Shown here: piece after piece, positions 4,155 to 59,165 of the stretch
Layout: every line of letters begins with the position of its first letter
Numbering within the stretch: position 1 is the stretch's first letter
Source of the DNA: Emydura subglobosa
Taxonomy: Eukaryota > Chordata > Testudines > Chelidae
DNA: 64,000 nucleotides
Direction: 5' to 3'
Assembly (NCBI GenBank): GCA_007922225.1
Contig: ML680053.1
Location: 10,192,870 to 10,256,869, forward strand
Position numbers and translations under genes: made by a program
The notes under the pieces: generated by a model
Told to the model about the DNA's origin: nothing
Seen by the model: the letters and a program-made list of their open reading frames with translations, nothing else
The model's database searches: none

Positions 4155-5640
4155 TTCTCTTCATCTTTTCTTTTATACCGCTTTTCCTGGTGAGGGTCGT
4201 GGTGGTAGCATGGAGAGAAGGGAGGACCAGACCTCCCTTTCTTCCACAACTGCTTCCAGCTCATCCTGGGGGATTCCCAGGCATTCCCAAGCCAGCCAAG
4301 AGATATAATCCCACCAGGATGTCCTGGGTCAGCCTCGGAGCTTTTTCCCAGTGGAACCTGCCCGGAATAGTTCCAAAGGGGCATCCTTATCAGGTGACCA
4401 AACCACTCTCAAATGACTCCTCTTAATCTGGAGGAGTAGCAGCTCTACTCCAAGGCTCTCCTGAATAGCTGAGCCCCTCACTCTATCTTGGAGAGTCAGC
4501 CCAGCCACCCTGCAGAAAAAACCTCATTTCCACCACTTGTACCCGCAATCTCATCCTTTTGGTTGTTACCCAAAGTTTATGACCATAGGTGACGATGGGG
4601 ATGTAGATTGACCTGTAAACTGAGAGCTTCATCTGAAAACTTAGCTCCCGCTTTACCACCACGGATTGGTTCAGCACCCACATCACTGCTGCTGCCACAC
4701 TAATCCGCCAGTCACTCTCATGCTCCTGTTTACCATCACTCATGAACAAGACCCCCAGATACTTGAACTCTTCCATTAAGGGCAGCTGCTCCCCCTTCAC
4801 CTGAGGAGATCACTCCTTTTTCTTCCAGGAAAGAATCATGACCTCCAATTTGGAGGTGCTGATTCTCATCCCAGCCACTTCACATTTGGCAGTGATGCGT
4901 TCGAGTGCATGTTGGTGATCACAGTCTGAAGAAACAAGAAGGACAATATCATCTGCAAACGGCAGAGATGCCACCTCAAAGTCTCCATACTGGAAATACT
5001 CCCCAACTCGGCTGCACCTTGATATCCTGTCCATGAAGCTCATGAACAGGAGTAGGGACAGGATGCATCCTTGGCAGAGTCCAACGCCCACCTTGAATGA
5101 ACTTGACAATGCCAAGAATGCGGACAACTCTCACTCTGGGAATAGAGGAATTGGATAGCATGCAGCAGCGTCACTGGCACCTCATACTCCCACAGCACTT
5201 CCCACAGGACATCTTGGGGAACGTGGTCATAAGCCTTCTCCAGGTCTACAAAACAAAAGTAGACCAGGTTAGCAAATTCCCATGATCCCTTGAGTATCTT
5301 TGCAAAAGCAAAGAGCTGGTCCGTTGTTTTATGTCCAGGACAGAAACCACATTGTTCCTCCTGAATCCAAGGTTTAACTAATGGGCATAGCCTCTTTTTC
5401 AACACTCTGCCAAAGGCTTTGCCAGGGAGGCTGAGAAGTGCGATCCCCCTGTAGCTGGAACACACCCTCTGGTTTCCTTAAAGATTGGCAAACCAGGACC
5501 ACTACCCTGGTTTGCCAAAACCCAAAGTATTGCGCCCGCCTTCCATGCAACATTGAAGAGGCACGCTAACCACAACACCCTGAATTTGTCCAGAGATTTC
5601 AACATCACATCCACCACTGATGCCCTACCACTGTGAATGC
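4155..5640 (-). pseudogene. Rex3/RTE-like non-LTR retrotransposon, reverse transcriptase remnant
   Basis: Read right to left, broken frames give reverse transcriptase motifs in order: SSYRGIALLSLPGK, motif A with FVDLEKAYD (about 5250), motif B GLCQGCILS (about 5080), the catalytic FADD box followed by IVLL (about 4960), then EEFKYLGVLF and YRSIYIPIVTYGH (about 4600-4760). The tail segment at 4160-4384 resembles the region after the RT in Rex3-type elements. The family is known from fish and other vertebrates; RTE-clade elements copy by target-primed reverse transcription. This copy is 5'-truncated: the endonuclease is absent, and at least three frame breaks separate the RT blocks. The clade name comes from motif memory; that it is a LINE RT is near certain. 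Confidence 0.8.
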
Positions 5641-18385: not shown

Positions 18386-18655
18386 ACATATCCTGACAGA
18401 ACAAGGAGCAACGGTCTCAAGTTGCAGTGGGGGAGGTCTAGATTGGACATCAGGAAAAAGTTTTTCACTAGGAGGGTGGTGAAGCACTGGAATGGGTTAC
18501 CTAGGGAGGTGGTGGAATCTCCATCTTTAGAGATTTTTAAGCTGAGGCTTGACAAAACCCTCGCTGGGATTATTTAGCTGAGGTTAGTCCGGCTTTGAGC
18601 AGGGGGTTGGACTACATGACCTCCTGAGGTCCCTTCCAACTCTATGATTCTAAGT
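18386..18655 (+). repeat. CR1 LINE 3' end, young-looking subfamily
   Basis: Encodes the last RT residues in frame ('[18 protein letters not shown]'-like), then a short 3' UTR ending 'caactctatgattcta'. It is very close to 58860-59125, with long runs identical, so both belong to one recent subfamily. It is heavily 5'-truncated. Confidence 0.88.
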
Positions 18656-19075: not shown

Positions 19076-20060
19076 AATTGCACAGATGGAGGGTTCAGAG
19101 TTCATTGGCATGCTGATTATAATACCTCTCGGCCAAAAACTGCATCATCTCCAGCATGCTGAGTGATGGCGTAGGGGCACATGAAATTGTGAATAACCAC
19201 ACATTGCTGCTCTACAGATATCCTGCATAGGAAATTGGGCTACAAATGCTGCTGAGGATGCTTGAACCATCATAGAATGTGCTGTCAGGGCAGGAAGAGC
19301 AGGGACCTTTGCTAGGTCGTAGCATGTGCGAAAACAGAAAGTGATCCACAGTGAAATTTTCTGGGCCAAGACTGGAAAGCCTTTCATCCTGTCTTCAATG
19401 GCTACAAAAAGCTGGGTAGATTTTTGAAACGATTCAGTCCTTTCTATGTAGAAGGCTAGTGCACACCTAACATCCAGCGAGTGGAGTCTATGTTCCTCCC
19501 TGTTAGCATGCGGATTTGGATAGAAGACCAGTAGGAAGATGTCCTGGTTACTATGGAATTGCGAGACCACCTTTGGCAGGAAGGTCGAGTGTGGCCACAG
19601 TTGAACCTTGTCCTTGAAGAAGACCATGTAAGGGGTTCCGAAGTAAGGGCTCAGATCCCTGAGACACTTCTAACAGAAGTAATGGCCATTAGTAAGGCCA
19701 CGTTCTAGGATAAGAAGAGCAAAGAGCACATTGCCAGCAGTTCAAATGGAGGTCCTATAGCCTTGCTAGCACTAAGTTAAGGTCCCAAAGAGGGAGTAGC
19801 TTTTGACCAGTGTAAGACCAGTTCTCGGGTGCAAGGCTGGGGAGCTGGGGGCAAAATTCCTGGAGCTTCCCTATTGATAGTTCTTGAGTGCCTGGGAGAT
19901 CATTCATGTAACTCAGTTGGGTGTGTCCCTGCCGGTGGATGTTTGTGTAAGTGCAATACCTGCCAGAGGTTTCTGGCTTGACATAGCATCACAGAGTGAG
20001 AAGGAGCCCAGGTTGGTGGGACAAAGGGCTCAGCGGTCTCACAATCCAGGTTACATCCCA
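19076..20060 (-). pseudogene. DIRS tyrosine recombinase, inactivated
   Basis: An open frame of 160 codons (19627 down to 19145) carries tyrosine recombinase features: 'LHSLDVRCALAFYIERT' with the first Arg (residue 54), 'QLFVAIEDRMKG', then 'LTAHSMM' where the family has H-S-T-R, then 'QDICRAA'. The second catalytic Arg (position 120) is Met. The downstream Trp-Ser-Ser and Arg-His-Tyr segments are altered, so the nucleophile Tyr is missing. In DIRS elements this enzyme inserts a circular cDNA without target duplication. The stretch above 19627 continues the upstream pol region in broken form. The frame length is good, but the active site is lost. Confidence 0.72.
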
Positions 20061-26839: not shown

Positions 26840-29800
26840 GCTCTGCTTCCATAGACCCATGGACTTTAAGGCCAGAAGGGACCATCATGATCATCTAGCC
26901 TGACCTCCTGCACATTGCAGGCCACAGAACCTCGCCCACGCCTTCCTTTAATGGACCTATAACCTCTGGCTGAGTTACTGAAGTCCTCAAATCATGATTT
27001 AAAGACTTTGAGTTACAGAGAACCCACCATTTACAGTAGTATAAACCTGACCCAGCCCCATGCTGCAGAGGAAGGTGAAAAAAACCCCAGGGTCTCTGCC
27101 AATCTGACCCAGGGGAAAATTCCTTCCTGACTCCATATATGATGGTCAGTTGGACCCTGAGCATTTTAGCAAGCCCCAACAGCCAGACAGTCTTTTCTGT
27201 AGTAACACAGAGCCCACCCCATCTAGTGTCCCATCACTGGCCATTAGGGATTTGCCTTTAGGAGTCACAGATCAACTCCATGTCATTTTAGGCAGTTTCA
27301 TCATAAAATCCCCTCCATAAATTTATCAAGCTGTCTTGAAGACAGTTAGGTTTTTTGCCCCTACTGCTCCCCTTGGAAGGCTGTTCCATAATTTCACTCC
27401 TCTAATGGTTAGAAACCTTTATCTAATTTCAAGCCTAAACTTGTTGATAGCCACTTTGTATCCATTTGTTCTTTGTCAACATTGGTGCTTAACTTAAGTA
27501 ACTCTTCTCCATCGCTAGTATTTATTTTTCTGATGTATTTATAGAGAGCCATCATATCTCCCCTCAGCCTGTTTTGTGAAGCTAAACTAGCCAAGCTCTT
27601 TGAATCTCATCTCATAAGGTAGATTTTCCATTCCTCTGATCTGTTCTTGTTCAAATTAATCTTTTTTAAACATGGGAGACCAGAACTGCACACAATATTC
27701 CAGCTGAGGTTTCACCAGTGCCTTGTATAACAGTACTAACACTTCCCTATATCTACTGGAAATACCTTGCCTGATGCATCCTAGGATTGCATTAGCCTTT
27801 TTCATGGCCACATCACATTGCTGGCTCATAGCCATCCTGTGATCAACCAATACATCCAGGTCTTTCTCCTCCTCTGTCGCTTCCAACTGATACATCCCTG
27901 GCTTATAGCAAATAGTCTTGTTGTTAGTCCCTAAGTGCATGAACTTGGCACTATTAAATTTCATCCCACTTCTATTACTTCAGTTTTCAAGACTCCAGAT
28001 TTTCCTGTATGATATTCTGGTCCTCCTCCATATTGGTAATACCTCTCAATTTTGTTGCAAATTTTATTAGGAATTTCCCACTTTTTGTGTCAATATCATT
28101 AATAAAAATGTTAAATAATATTGGTCCCAAAACCAATCCCCAAGGAACTACACTAGTAACTGATACAAGAGATTTTTAAGATGCTCTAGTCCATATAAGG
28201 AGATCAGCACCAGAGACAGTATTTAGCCACACAGCTGAAAACATGTGGAGTTTATTTGTTCCAAATTAAATAATAAAGATGGTGACAGTATCATAATGAT
28301 TAGGTATGAATAGAAATATAGTCAGTTTTAAGTTTAAGGCTTTTGGTAAGTAGTAAAGAATGATCGTTTAGAGCAAGTTTTAACTACATATATAAAATGA
28401 TGGCCAAGATTATGCCATGCTAAGAGAGAGAGAAACAAAATGGAGGTATTAAAAAACTGACCAAGAGTAGAAAGGTAGACTGGGGTGAAATAAAGTTCAG
28501 TCTTAATACCTGCAGGGGGGGGTCAGTTAGGTAGGAAGGAGGATCGCCAGGAGTTCCAAGTCTGAGTAAACAAGTGAAACTAATTGGGATATTGAACATC
28601 TAACTAGTCAAAAATGATATTTACCCCTGGGAGGGGAAGATGCGGTTGACTGACATTAAGAAAGCAACCAATCAGGAAAGGGCAGAAAATCATATATAAA
28701 GCAGAGAGCTGACAGGTTTAAGTGTGGGTGATGGGAGGAGCAGGACAGGACATCTAGAGTAACATCAGCAAAGCTTCACAGAATAGAAGGACGAGACAGA
28801 GGGATTTGACTAAGAAGGAGAGTAAGTATGACTCTTCTAAATATAAGGAATGTATGGTTATGACTGTAAATAAAGCTAGATGCTTGTGTTTGAATGACCT
28901 CCTATCCCACCCATTCTATGTTTGCTTGAACACTCATAGAATGTTAGTTGGCAGCAGTATTGTGTGTTATTGTAATGTCACTGTATGCATATGTATAAGG
29001 GAACTTTATGTTATGTTGTAATAAGTTTGGTATTCTAATACAACTTTGTATTAAGGTTTTATACATAGGAATGCACGGTCTTTATCTCCCTCTATGTTAT
29101 GGTATATGTTGCAACATTGTACATTTGCCATGCCTCACTCCAATTAAGTATTCATAACATTGTAAAATGGGTTAAGGAAATATTATATTGTGTTATGAGT
29201 ACTGTATTGCAATTATAGAGTTTACGTTATATTTGATGGTGCACCGCATTAGATTATATAGTTTATGCTGTCTTGTATTGTCCCAAGCTGCTTATTTCAT
29301 TTGTGACGTTGATTTTCAATTTAATTTGTATTAAAATTAGCATTTAATAAAGAGACATTTTGTTTTTGAAGAAATTACTGTCTAAGCGTCAATCCTTTGA
29401 GAGGAGGGCTGTATCCATGTCTTCCCAAGGGTAAACCCCGAGGCAGGCGGGTCTACGGAGATTCCCAATGATTTAAATGGAAACCCCTGGTAAACCCTTG
29501 TAAATGCCCTCAGTGGACCACTTCCCATTACCTACTTTTAGAATTAAAGCTTGGGATTGGTTCATTAGTATACCTGAACCACTATGGGATCACTTGGGTC
29601 CAAATTTTGGGGTAACATAACCTCCTTCTGATCTGACTGTTCAGATGACCCATTGTAGTAGTCTCCCCTTAAACTAATTCCTTACCCACCTTTCAATTTT
29701 CGTATTAATCCCCATCTTCTGAATGTAACTAATAATTTCCCATGTGGAACTGTATCAAATGCCTTACTGAAATCCAGGTAGATTAGATCTACTGCATTTC

Positions 29801-33100: not shown

Positions 33101-33500
33101 TTTCAGAAAAGAAATCAACAAGAAAACATCCAGATTTATCACTTTGAGGGTAAGAGTAAGGGATGGGGGGAGAAGGGAGAGTATTTGAATTCTATGTAGC
33201 TTGCACAAACAGCCTCTGGATTCTTGTTTCTGGCCTACCTGGACATTACCAAAACATTTTGATCATATCAGACAAAGGCAGGACCTGAACTGCAAACAGT
33301 TAAAACTGAAGGTCAGTATACTGCAAAATTAAAACACGCTTCTCTAGTTAAGCTACACAGACACAATAAAACAAAGCCTTCACAACCACCTGTAATAATA
33401 TGCCTGTTCAGCCAGCAATTCCAAAGTACTGAGCAACACACGGTAGACATTTTCAGCAGCTGGTTTTACATGTACATTTCTGCCAAATTGTTGTCTCATC
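30181..33500. other. Repeat-poor intronic DNA following the DLG2 first exon
   Basis: In contrast to the rest of the window I recognise almost no interspersed repeat here apart from a MITE scrap at 30200-30230. On the minus strand this is the start of the intron after the DLG2 exon. Low repeat density next to a neuronal promoter often goes with conserved regulatory DNA; whether it is conserved cannot be seen from one sequence. Confidence 0.5.
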
Positions 33501-33509
33501 TCTTCTTAC

Positions 33510-33551
33510 CTTCACGTTAGTCCGGAGTGCACAGTAACATGCAAAAAACAT
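33510..33551 (-). CDS. DLG2: DLG2 (PSD-93) alternative first coding exon, 14 codons
   Basis: The minus strand encodes MFFACYCALRTNVK and then a splice donor: exon ...GTGAAG, intron GTAAGAAGAG (33509 downward). This is the N-terminus of the DLG2 isoform (PSD-93 alpha type) that continues with KYRYQDED in the next exon. Cys5 and Cys7 are the palmitoylation sites that anchor this postsynaptic MAGUK scaffold at the membrane; its PDZ, SH3 and guanylate kinase-like domains lie in later exons outside the window. The exon ends in phase 0. The start context has G at -3. An in-frame upstream ATG at 33629 would add 26 residues, but it has C at -3 and would move the cysteines away from the N-terminus, so I chose 33551. 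An in-frame TAG at 33635-33633 closes the frame. No further DLG2 exon was recognised here. Confidence 0.87.
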
Positions 33552-33728
33552 TGCAGTAAACAAGGAGCATATGGACCCGTATTCAGCTTCTCTGCTCTGT
33601 ACAAACGGTATACACACGATCCTGAGCATGTGCTACTAAGGAGCATCCGTTCTCTCTGTCAGTTTGAAAATGCATCGATCTCTGTTTTTCTGACTACAAA
33701 AAGACATGTCTTGAAGGCACTGAGTGAA
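33552..33728 (-). other. DLG2: Putative DLG2 5' leader with upstream ORFs
   Basis: If transcription starts about 25-30 bases after the TATA-like word, the leader is about 175 bases. It holds ATGs at 33675 (31 codons including stop, ending 33583) and 33646 (45 codons including stop). The second runs through the whole coding exon in another frame and stops at TGA 33514-33512, two bases before the donor. Such an overlapping upstream ORF would lower translation of the main start. The transcript start is inferred. Confidence 0.55.
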
Positions 33729-33750
33729 AACTGTATATCTCTTCATCGGC

Positions 33751-33758
33751 TATATATA
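33751..33758 (-). promoter_or_regulatory. TATA-like box upstream of the DLG2 exon
   Basis: TATATATA lies 200 bases upstream of the proposed start codon, with 'gctatatatagccg' around it. The position suits a TATA box for a start site near 33725. The word is self-complementary, so strand is assigned from context only, and chance is possible in AT-rich DNA. Confidence 0.45.
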
Positions 33759-36700
33759 GCATTATTCCCAGCAATTTCAATTAGCAGACAATTCTGCATC
33801 TGAAACTTAGACCTCAGTTGCTTTTCCTTCCAGCATTTTAAATTTGGGGGGAATGTAAAAGAGGGGAGGGGGCAAAGACTCAACCAGAGGGGAAAGGTGA
33901 GGAATTAAAATTTAACCAGTAACTAGTATTTCCGTATAGCTTTGATGTTTTCTTTTAAATATTTTACAAATGGAATACATTTTACATGTGGGAAATGAAG
34001 ACAAGAGTCTCTTCTGTTCTGATATTTACTGTAGACTCTGCATTGTTTCTGTCTGGTCCTGTTAAAAATGCAGCATCCCTTTTAACAAAGACAACGTCAT
34101 CAACCATTACAGATTCAACATGTTCTACTTACAAATACAGTCTCTCATTAGAGACAATGGCTGGCTGGCTGGCTTATTAACGTTTCCTCAAATGCAAGTT
34201 CAGTCCACTGTGCTAATCTATTTTTAAACGGCTAAAAAGTCCCACCTACTCCTTCACCCTCATTTATTAAAAATGCAGTGAACTAGTTATAAAAATCATG
34301 AATCTCCTTGTGCTCCTAGCTAAGAATACTGACCATCGGCTTTAAAAGCTATGTTTTCTTATATGACTGGAATTACAAACAGAGAAAAATTAAAATGAAA
34401 GCAGAGAATCCTAGGGAAGATTGTACCCTCACATTTTGCGACTACTAACTCTGAATGTATAATGTTCAAATATCTTCCAGAAAGATGAAACCCATAACCT
34501 AGCCAGAAAGCAAAACCTTAATTCACAAGCACAAAAATAAGATAAAATCACTCCTGTCAACCACAGGATGCTACAAGTTAACTGATTGTTTACTGGGCTG
34601 AAGAGACATGAAGTCCAAAGCAAGGATCTAAGTCTTCATTTCCAGCACTAGAAACCACTAACATTCACACTGGATTTAGAAGCTGACTTCAGAAATAAAA
34701 CCTGAAAGACTCTCCCCCACCCCCACTGCAGCAGATAACTGTAGGAGGAAAAGAGTGGTAGAGGCTTTACTACCACCTTCCCTATCAGCGCAGAGCAATT
34801 TGTGTAGGATAAGCATAACTTAATAGAAAAATCTTCAGTGACTTTTAGGATTTTTAAAAATAATGCTTTACATAAACCTCCCAGAAGTCTGCAGAGATGT
34901 TAAACCCTGCCAAAGTCAGGGAGTATTTTTTGTGGGCAATGAGGTGAAGAAGCTTAAATGGAAAGACATGCATTTAAAGAAGAACAATTAGAGGAAAGGA
35001 AAAGACAGCAGGTTTTTCAACTTCTCCATAATGACAGGCACTAGGAAACTGTCGTCAATACCAAGTGAACAGCTATATTTAGTCTGTCATTGTTTGTGCC
35101 TTTTATTAGGAATGAAAAAGACAATGGTGTTTAAAGCTAGATATTGCTCAATAATGTATCCTAAAACAGCTACTTAATTTGATTCCCATTTCCGTCTGTC
35201 ATACAAATCTAGGTAATTACTAATCACAACCTCTTATAGCATAAGCAATGACTTCCGGAACAAAAGAGATTAACTATGTTCTTAACTCTTATACTACAAC
35301 TTTTACTAGTACTTAAACAGGAGTCTAGCAGCCCTAGTCAATAACTCTATCACACCCCAAAGTTATGCTCACAGACTTCTGCGGCAGCAGTTCCCAATAA
35401 ATGAGCCACAACATAGTAACATTTGCTCAGCAAAAAATATGAGAGGTTTAATTGATGCTTTTCTCCTTCACTTTTCAAGTGAATAAAAAGCGAAAGAAAT
35501 CACGGTTTATTTCTCAGTACAATACATTAACAATTACAATTAAGCACCTAATCCATTGAAAAAAATTCACAGATCTTGGGGAATTGTGATCCACTAGAGG
35601 AATGTGATTCAAAAAAGCAAAGATGATACATGCACAGACTTGAAGCTGCTTCTAAGCAAGGATCAGGCAAGCATGTAGATATATATGAAAATCAAGTTTA
35701 GGCCAGGTCAGATGCCTGCTTTCTGCCGAATGGATTACTAAAGACTTAGTTCAGGAAAGTCTCTGAAGTATTCTTATACCGCATAGTCTTAAAACGTTAC
35801 CGTTTCAAAATTAACAACAGGAAAATGGGAATCTTACAAAAAGAAAACAGAACAGTGTAGACATAAAAATGCATCTTATATGACTCCCATGTGATCACTT
35901 GCATAAGAGAGATTTAGGGCAATGGAAAATAATACAAAGTCCAGCCCCTAAGTCTTTATAAAAGGAAAGCTTCCATTGCCTTCAGATGTTTGGGGAGGGG
36001 AAATCTTCCAGGAAATGGCAAGACCCTGACCTTTATACATAGCAGTCTCCTGCTCTTGTGATAGCCAGCTGATACATGAAGATTGGGGCATCTGACTGGT
36101 AGTGAGAGAAGCAAAACCTCTACGCAAACCAACACAAGGTTAGTCTGGCAGGGGCTGGATCATGTAACCTACATAAACTAATCCCAGTAGCATTTTTGCA
36201 CCATGGCCTGCACATTTCTTAGTCCAATAATCTATTTTTTAGGCATTCCTCTCTTCAAGAAATGAACCATATTTTATAATGACTATTAACCACAAGAAGG
36301 AAGAGTTCCCTATCCAAAGCATCTAATGATGGTTATGACGACTGCCCTTGGTACAAAGCTGACAATAGTAAGTCCACAACAGGGGAAAAATCTCTACATT
36401 CAGAAGTACTGCCAGAGCTGCAAACTTCAGTTGAAGCCTTCAGGGCTTCTTTAAACACAAGACCACAGGAAAGAACCCCACTGGAAGTTGGGAGTCCACA
36501 AACCCACAGAAGTATCTGTATCGGATAGTTATAGCCCCTTTTAAACAAAGGCACAACATGCAGGACCCTGCATATTCTGAGGCTATGAAGGAACCATCTT
36601 TGGCTGTGGAATGTTGCCACTGCTTTATGAACATACACCTCTCAGAAGGGAAAAAGTAGGAACTCTGATTAACACTGTACTTGCTCTGTGTGGGCTCAGG

Positions 36701-38386: not shown

Positions 38387-39220
38387 CTTATAGAATGATT
38401 GACTTCAAGGTCAGAAGCAACCATCGTAATCATCTAGTCTGACCTCCTTCACATTGCAGGCCACAGAATCTCATCTACCCACTCTTGTGATAGACCCCAA
38501 ACCACCAGCTGAGTTACTGAAGTCCTCAAATCATGGTTTAAAGATTCAAGTTTCAGAGAATTCACCATTCACATTAGCTTAAACCAGCACATGACCTGTT
38601 CACCCTGCTGCAGAGGAAGGTGAAAGAAACCCAGATTTTCTGCCAATCTCTGCTGATGTGTCCTAGAGTGGGAGGAATTCCTTCCTGCCCCCAAATATGG
38701 CAATCAGTTAGACCCTGAGCATGTGGGCAAGACTCACCAGGCACATACCAGAGAATTCTCTCTCAGTAGTAACTCAGAGCCCTCCCCATCTAGGCTCCCA
38801 CCTTCGGCTGTTGGGGATTTTTGCTACTGGCAGTGGCCAATGGGCCAATGCCATTGTAGGCAGTCTCATCATACCATCCCTTCCATAAACTTATTAAGCT
38901 CAGTGTTGAAGCCAGTTAGGTTTTTTGCCCCCACTGCTCCCCTTGGCAGGCTGTTCCAGAACTTCACTCCTTTGATGGTTAGAAAACTTTGCCTAATTTC
39001 AAGCCTTAACTTGGTAATGGCCAATTTATATCCATTTGTTCCTGTGTCGACATTGGTGCTTAACTTAAATAACTCCTTTCCCTCCCTGGCATTTATCCCT
39101 CTGATGTATTTATAGAGAGCAATCATATCTCCCCTCAGCCTTCTTTTGGTTAGGCCAAACAAGCCAAGCTCATTGGGTCCCCTCTCATAAGGCAGGTTTT
39201 CCACTCCTCAGATCAACTCC
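38387..39220 (-). repeat. CR1 LINE 3' part with long 3' UTR
   Basis: A 111-codon frame (39204 down to 38869) holds the RT C-terminal tail: 'LFGLTKRRLRGDMIALYKYI', 'LFKLSTNVDTGTNGYKLA', 'LRLEIRQSFLTIKGVKFWN'. It is followed by a 3' UTR of about 480 bases ending at 38387. The frame is intact across the fragment, suggesting a moderate age. It is the same subfamily as the 26.9-kb copy. Confidence 0.9.
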
Positions 39221-57445: not shown

Positions 57446-59165
57446 GGTGACCAGATGACCCGATTTTATAGGGACAGTCCCGAAATTAAGGGCTTTGTCT
57501 TGTAAAGGCACCTATTAGCTATTCTTTTGGCACATCACATCCCAATGTGCAGAAAGAATAGCAAATATGGCAGATGACTAGATTGGCTTAACAAAGACGT
57601 TTTCCGCGAGTTTAAACACAAGAAGTGGAAGCCTGGTCGACAACTAGGGAGGAGTATAAAAGTACTGCTTGAACATGCAGGAGTGAAACCAGGAAGGCCA
57701 AAGCACAACTGGAGTTGCAGCTAGCAAGGGACATGAATGGTAACAAGAAGTGTTTCTACAGATATGTTAGTAAAAAGAAGGTCAGGGAAAGTCTGGGCCC
57801 TTTACTAAATGTGGGAGGCAACCTAGTGACAGATGATGTGGAAAAGCTGAGGTACTCAAGGCATTTTTTGTCTTTGCCTTCACAGACAAGGTCAGCTCCC
57901 AGACTACTGCAGTGGGCAGCACAGAATGGGAAGGAGGTGAGCAGCCATCCGTGCTGAAAGAACAGGTTCAGGACTATTTAGAAAGGCTGGACATGCACAA
58001 GTCCACGGGACTGGATGCAATGCATCTGAGGGTTCTGAGGGAGTTGGCTGATAAGATGGATAGATAGCTTGCTAGATAATCGAGCAAAACGGGTAGTGAT
58101 CAACGGCTCAATGTCTAGTTGGCAGCCAGTAACAAACAGAATGTCCCAGGGGTAAGTGCTCGGGCTAGTTTTGTTCAACATCTTCATTAATAATCTGGAG
58201 GATGAGGTGGATTGCACCCTCAGCAAGTTTGCAGATGACACTAACCTGGGAGGAATGGGAGACACGCTGAAGAGCAGGGATAAGATACAGAGTGACCTAA
58301 ACAAATTAGACGATTGGGCCAAAAGAAATCTGATGAGGTTCAACAAGGACAAGTGCAGAGTCCTGCACTTAAAATGGAAGAATCCTATGCACGGCTACAG
58401 ACTGGGTACCAACTGGCTAGGCAGCAGTTCTGCAGAAAAGGACCTGGGGGTTACAGTGGACAAGAAGCGGGATATGAGTCAACAGTGTGCCCTTATTGCC
58501 AAGAAGGCTAACAACAAGTTGGTATGCATTAGTGGAAGCACTACCAGCAGATAGAGGGAAGTGATTATTCCCCTCTATTCGACACTAGAGAGGCCACATT
58601 TGGAGTGCTGTGTCCAGTTTTGAGCCCCCCTCTACAGAGAGGATGTGGATAAACTGGAAAGAGTCCAGTGGAGGGCAACAAAAATGATTAGATGGCTGGA
58701 GCACATGACTTATGAGGAGAGGCTGAGGAAACTAAGCTTGTTTAGTCTTCAGAAGAGAAGAATGAGAGGAGGATTTGTTAGCAGCCTTTAATTACCTGAA
58801 AGGAGGTTCCAGGGAGGATGGTGCTAGGCTATTCTCAGTGGTAGTAGATGACAGAATTAGGAGCAATGCTCTCAAGTTGCAGTGGGGGAGGTCTAGGTTG
58901 GATATTAGACAAAACTTTTTCACTAGGAGGGTGGTGAAGCACTGGAATGGGTTACCTAGGGAGGTGGTGGAATCTCCATTCTTAGAGGTTTTTAAGGTGT
59001 GGCTTGACAAAGCCCTGGCTGGGATGATTTAGTTGTGGTTGGTCCTGCTTTGAGCAGGGGGTTGGACTAGATGACCTCCTGAGGTCCCTTCCAACCTTAA
59101 TCTTCTATGATTTTATGATTATCCGCTACCCCATCATGATTTTTCACACTTGCTGTCTGATCACT
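57446..59165. mobile_element. TIR-type MITE split by a CR1
   Basis: The left part (57446-57507) begins AGGGTGACCAGATGACCCG and continues 'attttatagggacagtcccga'. The right part (59126-59165) reads 'atttttcacacttgctgtctgatcactcc', whose complement matches the left end. Together they form a known turtle MITE of about 100 bases, interrupted by the CR1 at 57508-59125. Confidence 0.7.
57508..59125 (+). pseudogene. CR1 LINE, internally deleted
   Basis: Frames give 'NKKCFYRYVSKKK' and 'GPLLNVGGNLVTDD' (57745-57830) and then 'MHKSTGLDAMHLRVLRELAD' (57995-58050). At about 58070 the sequence jumps to 'RVVINGSMSSWQPV' (58098), so the segment with RT motif A is missing. Downstream a 132-codon frame holds '[15 protein letters not shown]' and the intact catalytic box FADDTNLGG (58228), then '[19 protein letters not shown]'. 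A further frame (58775-59032) ends the protein. The 3' end is almost the same as at 18.4 kb, so the copy is relatively young but dead. Confidence 0.9.

Follow-up and report, generated by a model that had tools for sequence, protein, structure and literature searches.

Translation of the 64,000-nucleotide stretch of Emydura subglobosa DNA analysed here (the window) revealed a 14-codon reading frame on the minus strand, 33551-33510, which encodes MFFACYCALRTNVK and is directly followed by the splice donor GTAAGA, as the preliminary description of this DNA had claimed. The two cysteines singled out there, Cys5 and Cys7, are both present, numbered from the MFF start. The same frame also continues beyond the exon described earlier: an upstream ATG at 33629, which that description had missed, places MLRIVCIPFVQSREAEYGSICSLFTA before MFFACYC and gives 40 open codons. 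The features of the locus and of its surroundings are collected in Table 1.

Table 1. Features located in the window, with coordinates, strand and basis of assignment.
Feature	Coordinates	Strand	Basis or remark
DLG2 (PSD-93) palmitoylated-isoform first exon, coding part	33510..33551	minus	MFFACYCALRTNVK, Cys5 and Cys7; 14-mer exact in 97 of the best 120 records
Splice donor GTAAGA, phase 0, right after codon 14	33504..33509	minus	sequence and record joins
26-codon in-frame extension MLRIVCIPFVQSREAEYGSICSLFTA from ATG 33629; either an alternative N-terminus or a conserved 5' leader	33552..33629	minus	open frame, gene models
In-frame TAG stop bounding the extended frame	33633..33635	minus	sequence
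Upstream ORF in another frame, from ATG 33646 (45 codons including the stop), overlapping the MFF start	33512..33646	minus	end computed from ORF length
TATATATA, possible TATA box some 200 bases 5' of the MFF start; palindromic, present twice in the window	33751..33758	minus	putative function
Reverse-transcriptase (RVT_1) fragment	5040-5462	minus	Pfam E 3.3e-13
Reverse-transcriptase (RVT_1) fragment	58156-58551	plus	Pfam E 3.2e-7
160-codon ORF	19148-19627	minus	Pfam: no match at E 0.1
Dispersed repeat pair	18394-18652 / 58849-59107		89% identical
Dispersed repeat pair	27333-27471 / 38903-39041		88% identical
Dispersed repeat pair	27471-27575 / 39042-39146		86% identical

A protein collection was searched with a DLG2 query, of which only residues 1-60 were scored. 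This search returned 3105 proteins at E <= 1, and the best 120 were examined. Among these, 71 begin exactly with MFFACYCALRTNVK, 26 contain it at an internal position, and 23 have other N-termini that lack it. The 97 records with the 14-mer are not independent observations, since gene models make up most of them and single species contribute several isoforms; the collection is moreover clustered at 90% identity, so that relatives inside one cluster are hidden. The carriers include human, macaque, mouse, rat (one named chapsyn-110), opossum, chicken and zebra finch, together with Zootoca, Podarcis, Chelonia mydas, Hyla and Anomaloglossus. The identity given in the preliminary description, the palmitoylated isoform of PSD-93, is thus borne out by database records. 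We take the Greek label of the isoform starting MFFACYC to be alpha or alpha1. The first exon is already known biology that had been correctly identified. It can be called hidden, as it had been, for ordinary ORF calling only, since many vertebrate gene models already hold this N-terminus. The identity of the window is fixed from 42 bases, an example of how reading can pick out even a very short first exon.

The way in which the records continue after the 14-mer agrees with the donor. KYRYQDED follows directly in 65 of the 97, which implies that the KYRYQDED exon begins on a codon boundary, and five others continue with YRYQDED, one lysine fewer. The remaining 27 (P0066-P0073, P0075-P0078, P0080-P0083, P0087 and P0088-P0097) carry a further cassette between the MFF exon and KYRYQDED, of the form KGQEEEN...Q in birds, with others in the armadillo, Hyla, Psammomys and Hyperolius models. 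Pfam returned no family for the 22-mer and none for 39 residues of the extended frame, and Rfam gave no match. A degenerate pattern of the exon had no match in either viral or prokaryote contigs, as expected, and a text search of the literature for MFFACYCALRTNVK and MFFACYC as strings of letters gave no match.

Two readings would deny that the exon is functional. The first, a chance short ORF beside a donor-like GTAAG, draws on the frequency of such sites: the exon's donor, AAG/GTAAGA, fits the consensus MAG/GTRAG, of which the two strands of the window have 15 occurrences; the full nonamer AAGGTAAGA is present once, at this exon. By itself the donor is weak evidence; its combination with the 14-mer, in register with the codons, is not due to chance. 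From base composition, the number of exact copies of the 14-mer expected in the window, on both strands, is about 1e-14 (log10 = -13.8), and Chelonia matches 38 of the 40 residues of the extended frame, against best values of 10, 11 and 10 in three mononucleotide-shuffled windows. Database records and chance expectation together refute this reading, whose probability we regard as negligible. The second, a duplicated or retrocopied DLG2 pseudo-exon, would account for the finding of just one DLG2 exon in the window. Against it, the 14 residues carry no substitution, and the donor that follows is intact, with no cDNA-like continuation past the exon edge. When Chelonia mydas DLG2 isoform X8 (P0062) was compared with the window alone by tblastn, the match spanned 33629-33501 (E 9.9e-19); the flank upstream of MFF also matches the turtle and bird gene models, and for this reason the locus, rather than just the peptide, looks orthologous. 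We consider a pseudo-exon very improbable. There is little doubt in our assessment that the exon is the orthologue of the alternative DLG2 first exon encoding the palmitoylated PSD-93 N-terminus, and it most likely works as proposed below.

The surrounding DNA is consistent with intronic DLG2 sequence. In mouse, according to PMC6389146, the gene begins at its extreme 5' end with the beta exons, and splicing joins the palmitoylated alpha1 and alpha2 exons straight to exon 5, so a position of the exon inside a large gene is expected. Neither tblastn with the 120 listed proteins nor six-frame scans located another DLG2 exon in the 64 kb, the KYRYQDED exon included. With tblastn (E up to 10, top 25 merged places), the best place outside the exon has an E of 0.16 and holds a stop. 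Seven other DLG2 peptides were scanned without gaps in six frames, with three mononucleotide-shuffled windows for comparison, and five did not rise above the best shuffle; the KGQEEEN bird cassette (9/27 against a best shuffle of 8, with two stops inside) and the Nothoprocta start (8/20 against 7) were taken as background. Nine of the 16 ORFs of at least 110 codons were searched against Pfam, and two match reverse transcriptase above the cutoff while none matches another family above it. These two fragments are probably LINE remains. The 160-codon ORF may resemble the terminal part of a tyrosine recombinase of the DIRS-like kind.

The 26-codon extension was followed in the same collection. Searching with the extended head retrieved 26 records, the same 26 that hold the 14-mer internally: 24 from birds, one from Chelonia mydas and one from the frog Hyperolius riggenbachi. 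A search from the Hyperolius head gave those 26 again among 83 candidates, with no new group. Chelonia mydas is the nearest record and the sole turtle among them, and no crocodilian is included. Identity to the window over the extension is 24/26 for Chelonia, 22/26 for 23 bird records, 21/26 for one hummingbird record and 15/26 for Hyperolius. The 23 bird records, with Rhea, Dromaius, Gallus, Anas and passerines among them, are letter-identical to each other in this segment. An open frame is in effect the criterion by which the species with an extension were selected. Among the matches listed in a literature search, there was no paper on an upstream extension of DLG2, although this does not prove the extension unpublished.

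The extension in the bird, turtle and single frog models can be read in two ways: as a real alternative N-terminus, or as the outcome of a longest-frame annotation habit applied to a conserved 5' leader, in which case the bird records that have it carry the wrong start. Under the former, one exon would make two proteins, from the MFF start and from ATG 33629, and in the longer form the cysteines would become internal (residues 31 and 33), where they would probably escape lipidation. The openness of the frame over 40 codons, the similarity to Chelonia and the birds, the invariance of the extension from Rhea to passerines, and the equal length, frame and starting methionine in Hyperolius all speak for translation. 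However, a stop-free stretch of 26 codons is not improbable by itself, and the extension is far less conserved than the 14-mer, with 15/26 against 14/14 in the frog. The 71 other listed 14-mer records, which include mammals, two lizards and two other frogs, begin at MFF. Gene-model software tends toward the longest frame, so agreement among gene models is no evidence of translation. The start context points the same way: ATG 33629 is weak, with C at -3 and C at +4, compared with the better ATG 33551, which has G at -3. The out-of-frame ORF from ATG 33646, which overlaps the MFF start, also counts against the longer form and is relevant if the transcript begins upstream of 33646. We therefore think, from the contexts of the two start codons, that the extension is mostly a conserved leader, and consider a second protein from this exon unlikely. 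A bolder version, in which leaky scanning in birds, turtles and the window species would yield both the lipidated MFFACYC form and a 26-residue longer form burying the cysteine pair, is doubtful in our estimation. Such an exon would have a built-in means of switching PSD-93 between a membrane-bound and a free state; mammals would lack it, and it might be ancestral to tetrapods, as Hyperolius hints.

A candidate promoter lies upstream of the extension. The TATA-like TATATATA at 33758-33751 may be due to chance. The CpG ratio of 33552-33760 is 0.65, compared with 0.19 for the whole window, but the window has 11 clusters that reach this CpG count, the present one included. Both observations fit a predicted promoter or a conserved leader. 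No RE1 or CRE pattern was found within 33300-34300.

Sequence, donor, frame and peptide orthology are directly established here, and a route from them to a membrane-bound scaffold can be proposed. DLG2 N-termini arise from alternative promoters (PMC6389146), and in the window species an internal promoter upstream of the exon would start minus-strand transcription. Ribosomes would mostly bypass the upstream ATGs, which are weak, and initiate at 33551. A phase-0 splice would then join the exon to a KYRYQDED exon beyond the window, and palmitoylation of Cys5 and Cys7 in the product would tether the scaffold to the membrane. A tagged alpha isoform is mainly at the plasma membrane (PMC6389146). In PMC6365469, PSD-93 is described as having two palmitoylated N-terminal variants; according to that paper, very little is known of the effect of this palmitoylation, which might be dispensable for synaptic targeting.

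Among known systems, the closest is the palmitoylated isoform of DLG2/PSD-93/chapsyn-110 itself. Rat chapsyn-110 (P0055) and human DLG2 (P0035) share with the window all 14 residues, the Cys5/Cys7 pair and the join to KYRYQDED; they start at MFF, whereas the window frame is additionally open for 26 codons upstream. The same 40-residue frame, with 14/14 in the exon, is found in Chelonia mydas X8 and in bird models such as Gallus P0013. Within the extension, residue 7 is Ile in the window and Val in Chelonia, residue 18 is Gly in the window and Trp in Chelonia, and the birds differ from the window at residues 3 and 14 too; the bird value of 22/26 holds for 23 of the 24. The N-terminus of DLG4/PSD-95 (PDB 2mes_B) has a similar layout, short and with a C-x-C pair joined to KKYRYQDED, and its match is weak (E 0.18) because the query has 22 residues. 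Two human DLG2 models, P0108 and P0111, begin with MDCLCIVTTKKYRYQDED, like the PSD-95 start in 2mes_B so far as that match shows. According to PMC6365469, the cysteines of DLG4/PSD-95 are Cys3 and Cys5, and its other residues differ from those of the window, this being a paralogue and another gene. By analogy with these systems, the window exon most likely works like the known palmitoylated PSD-93 N-terminus.
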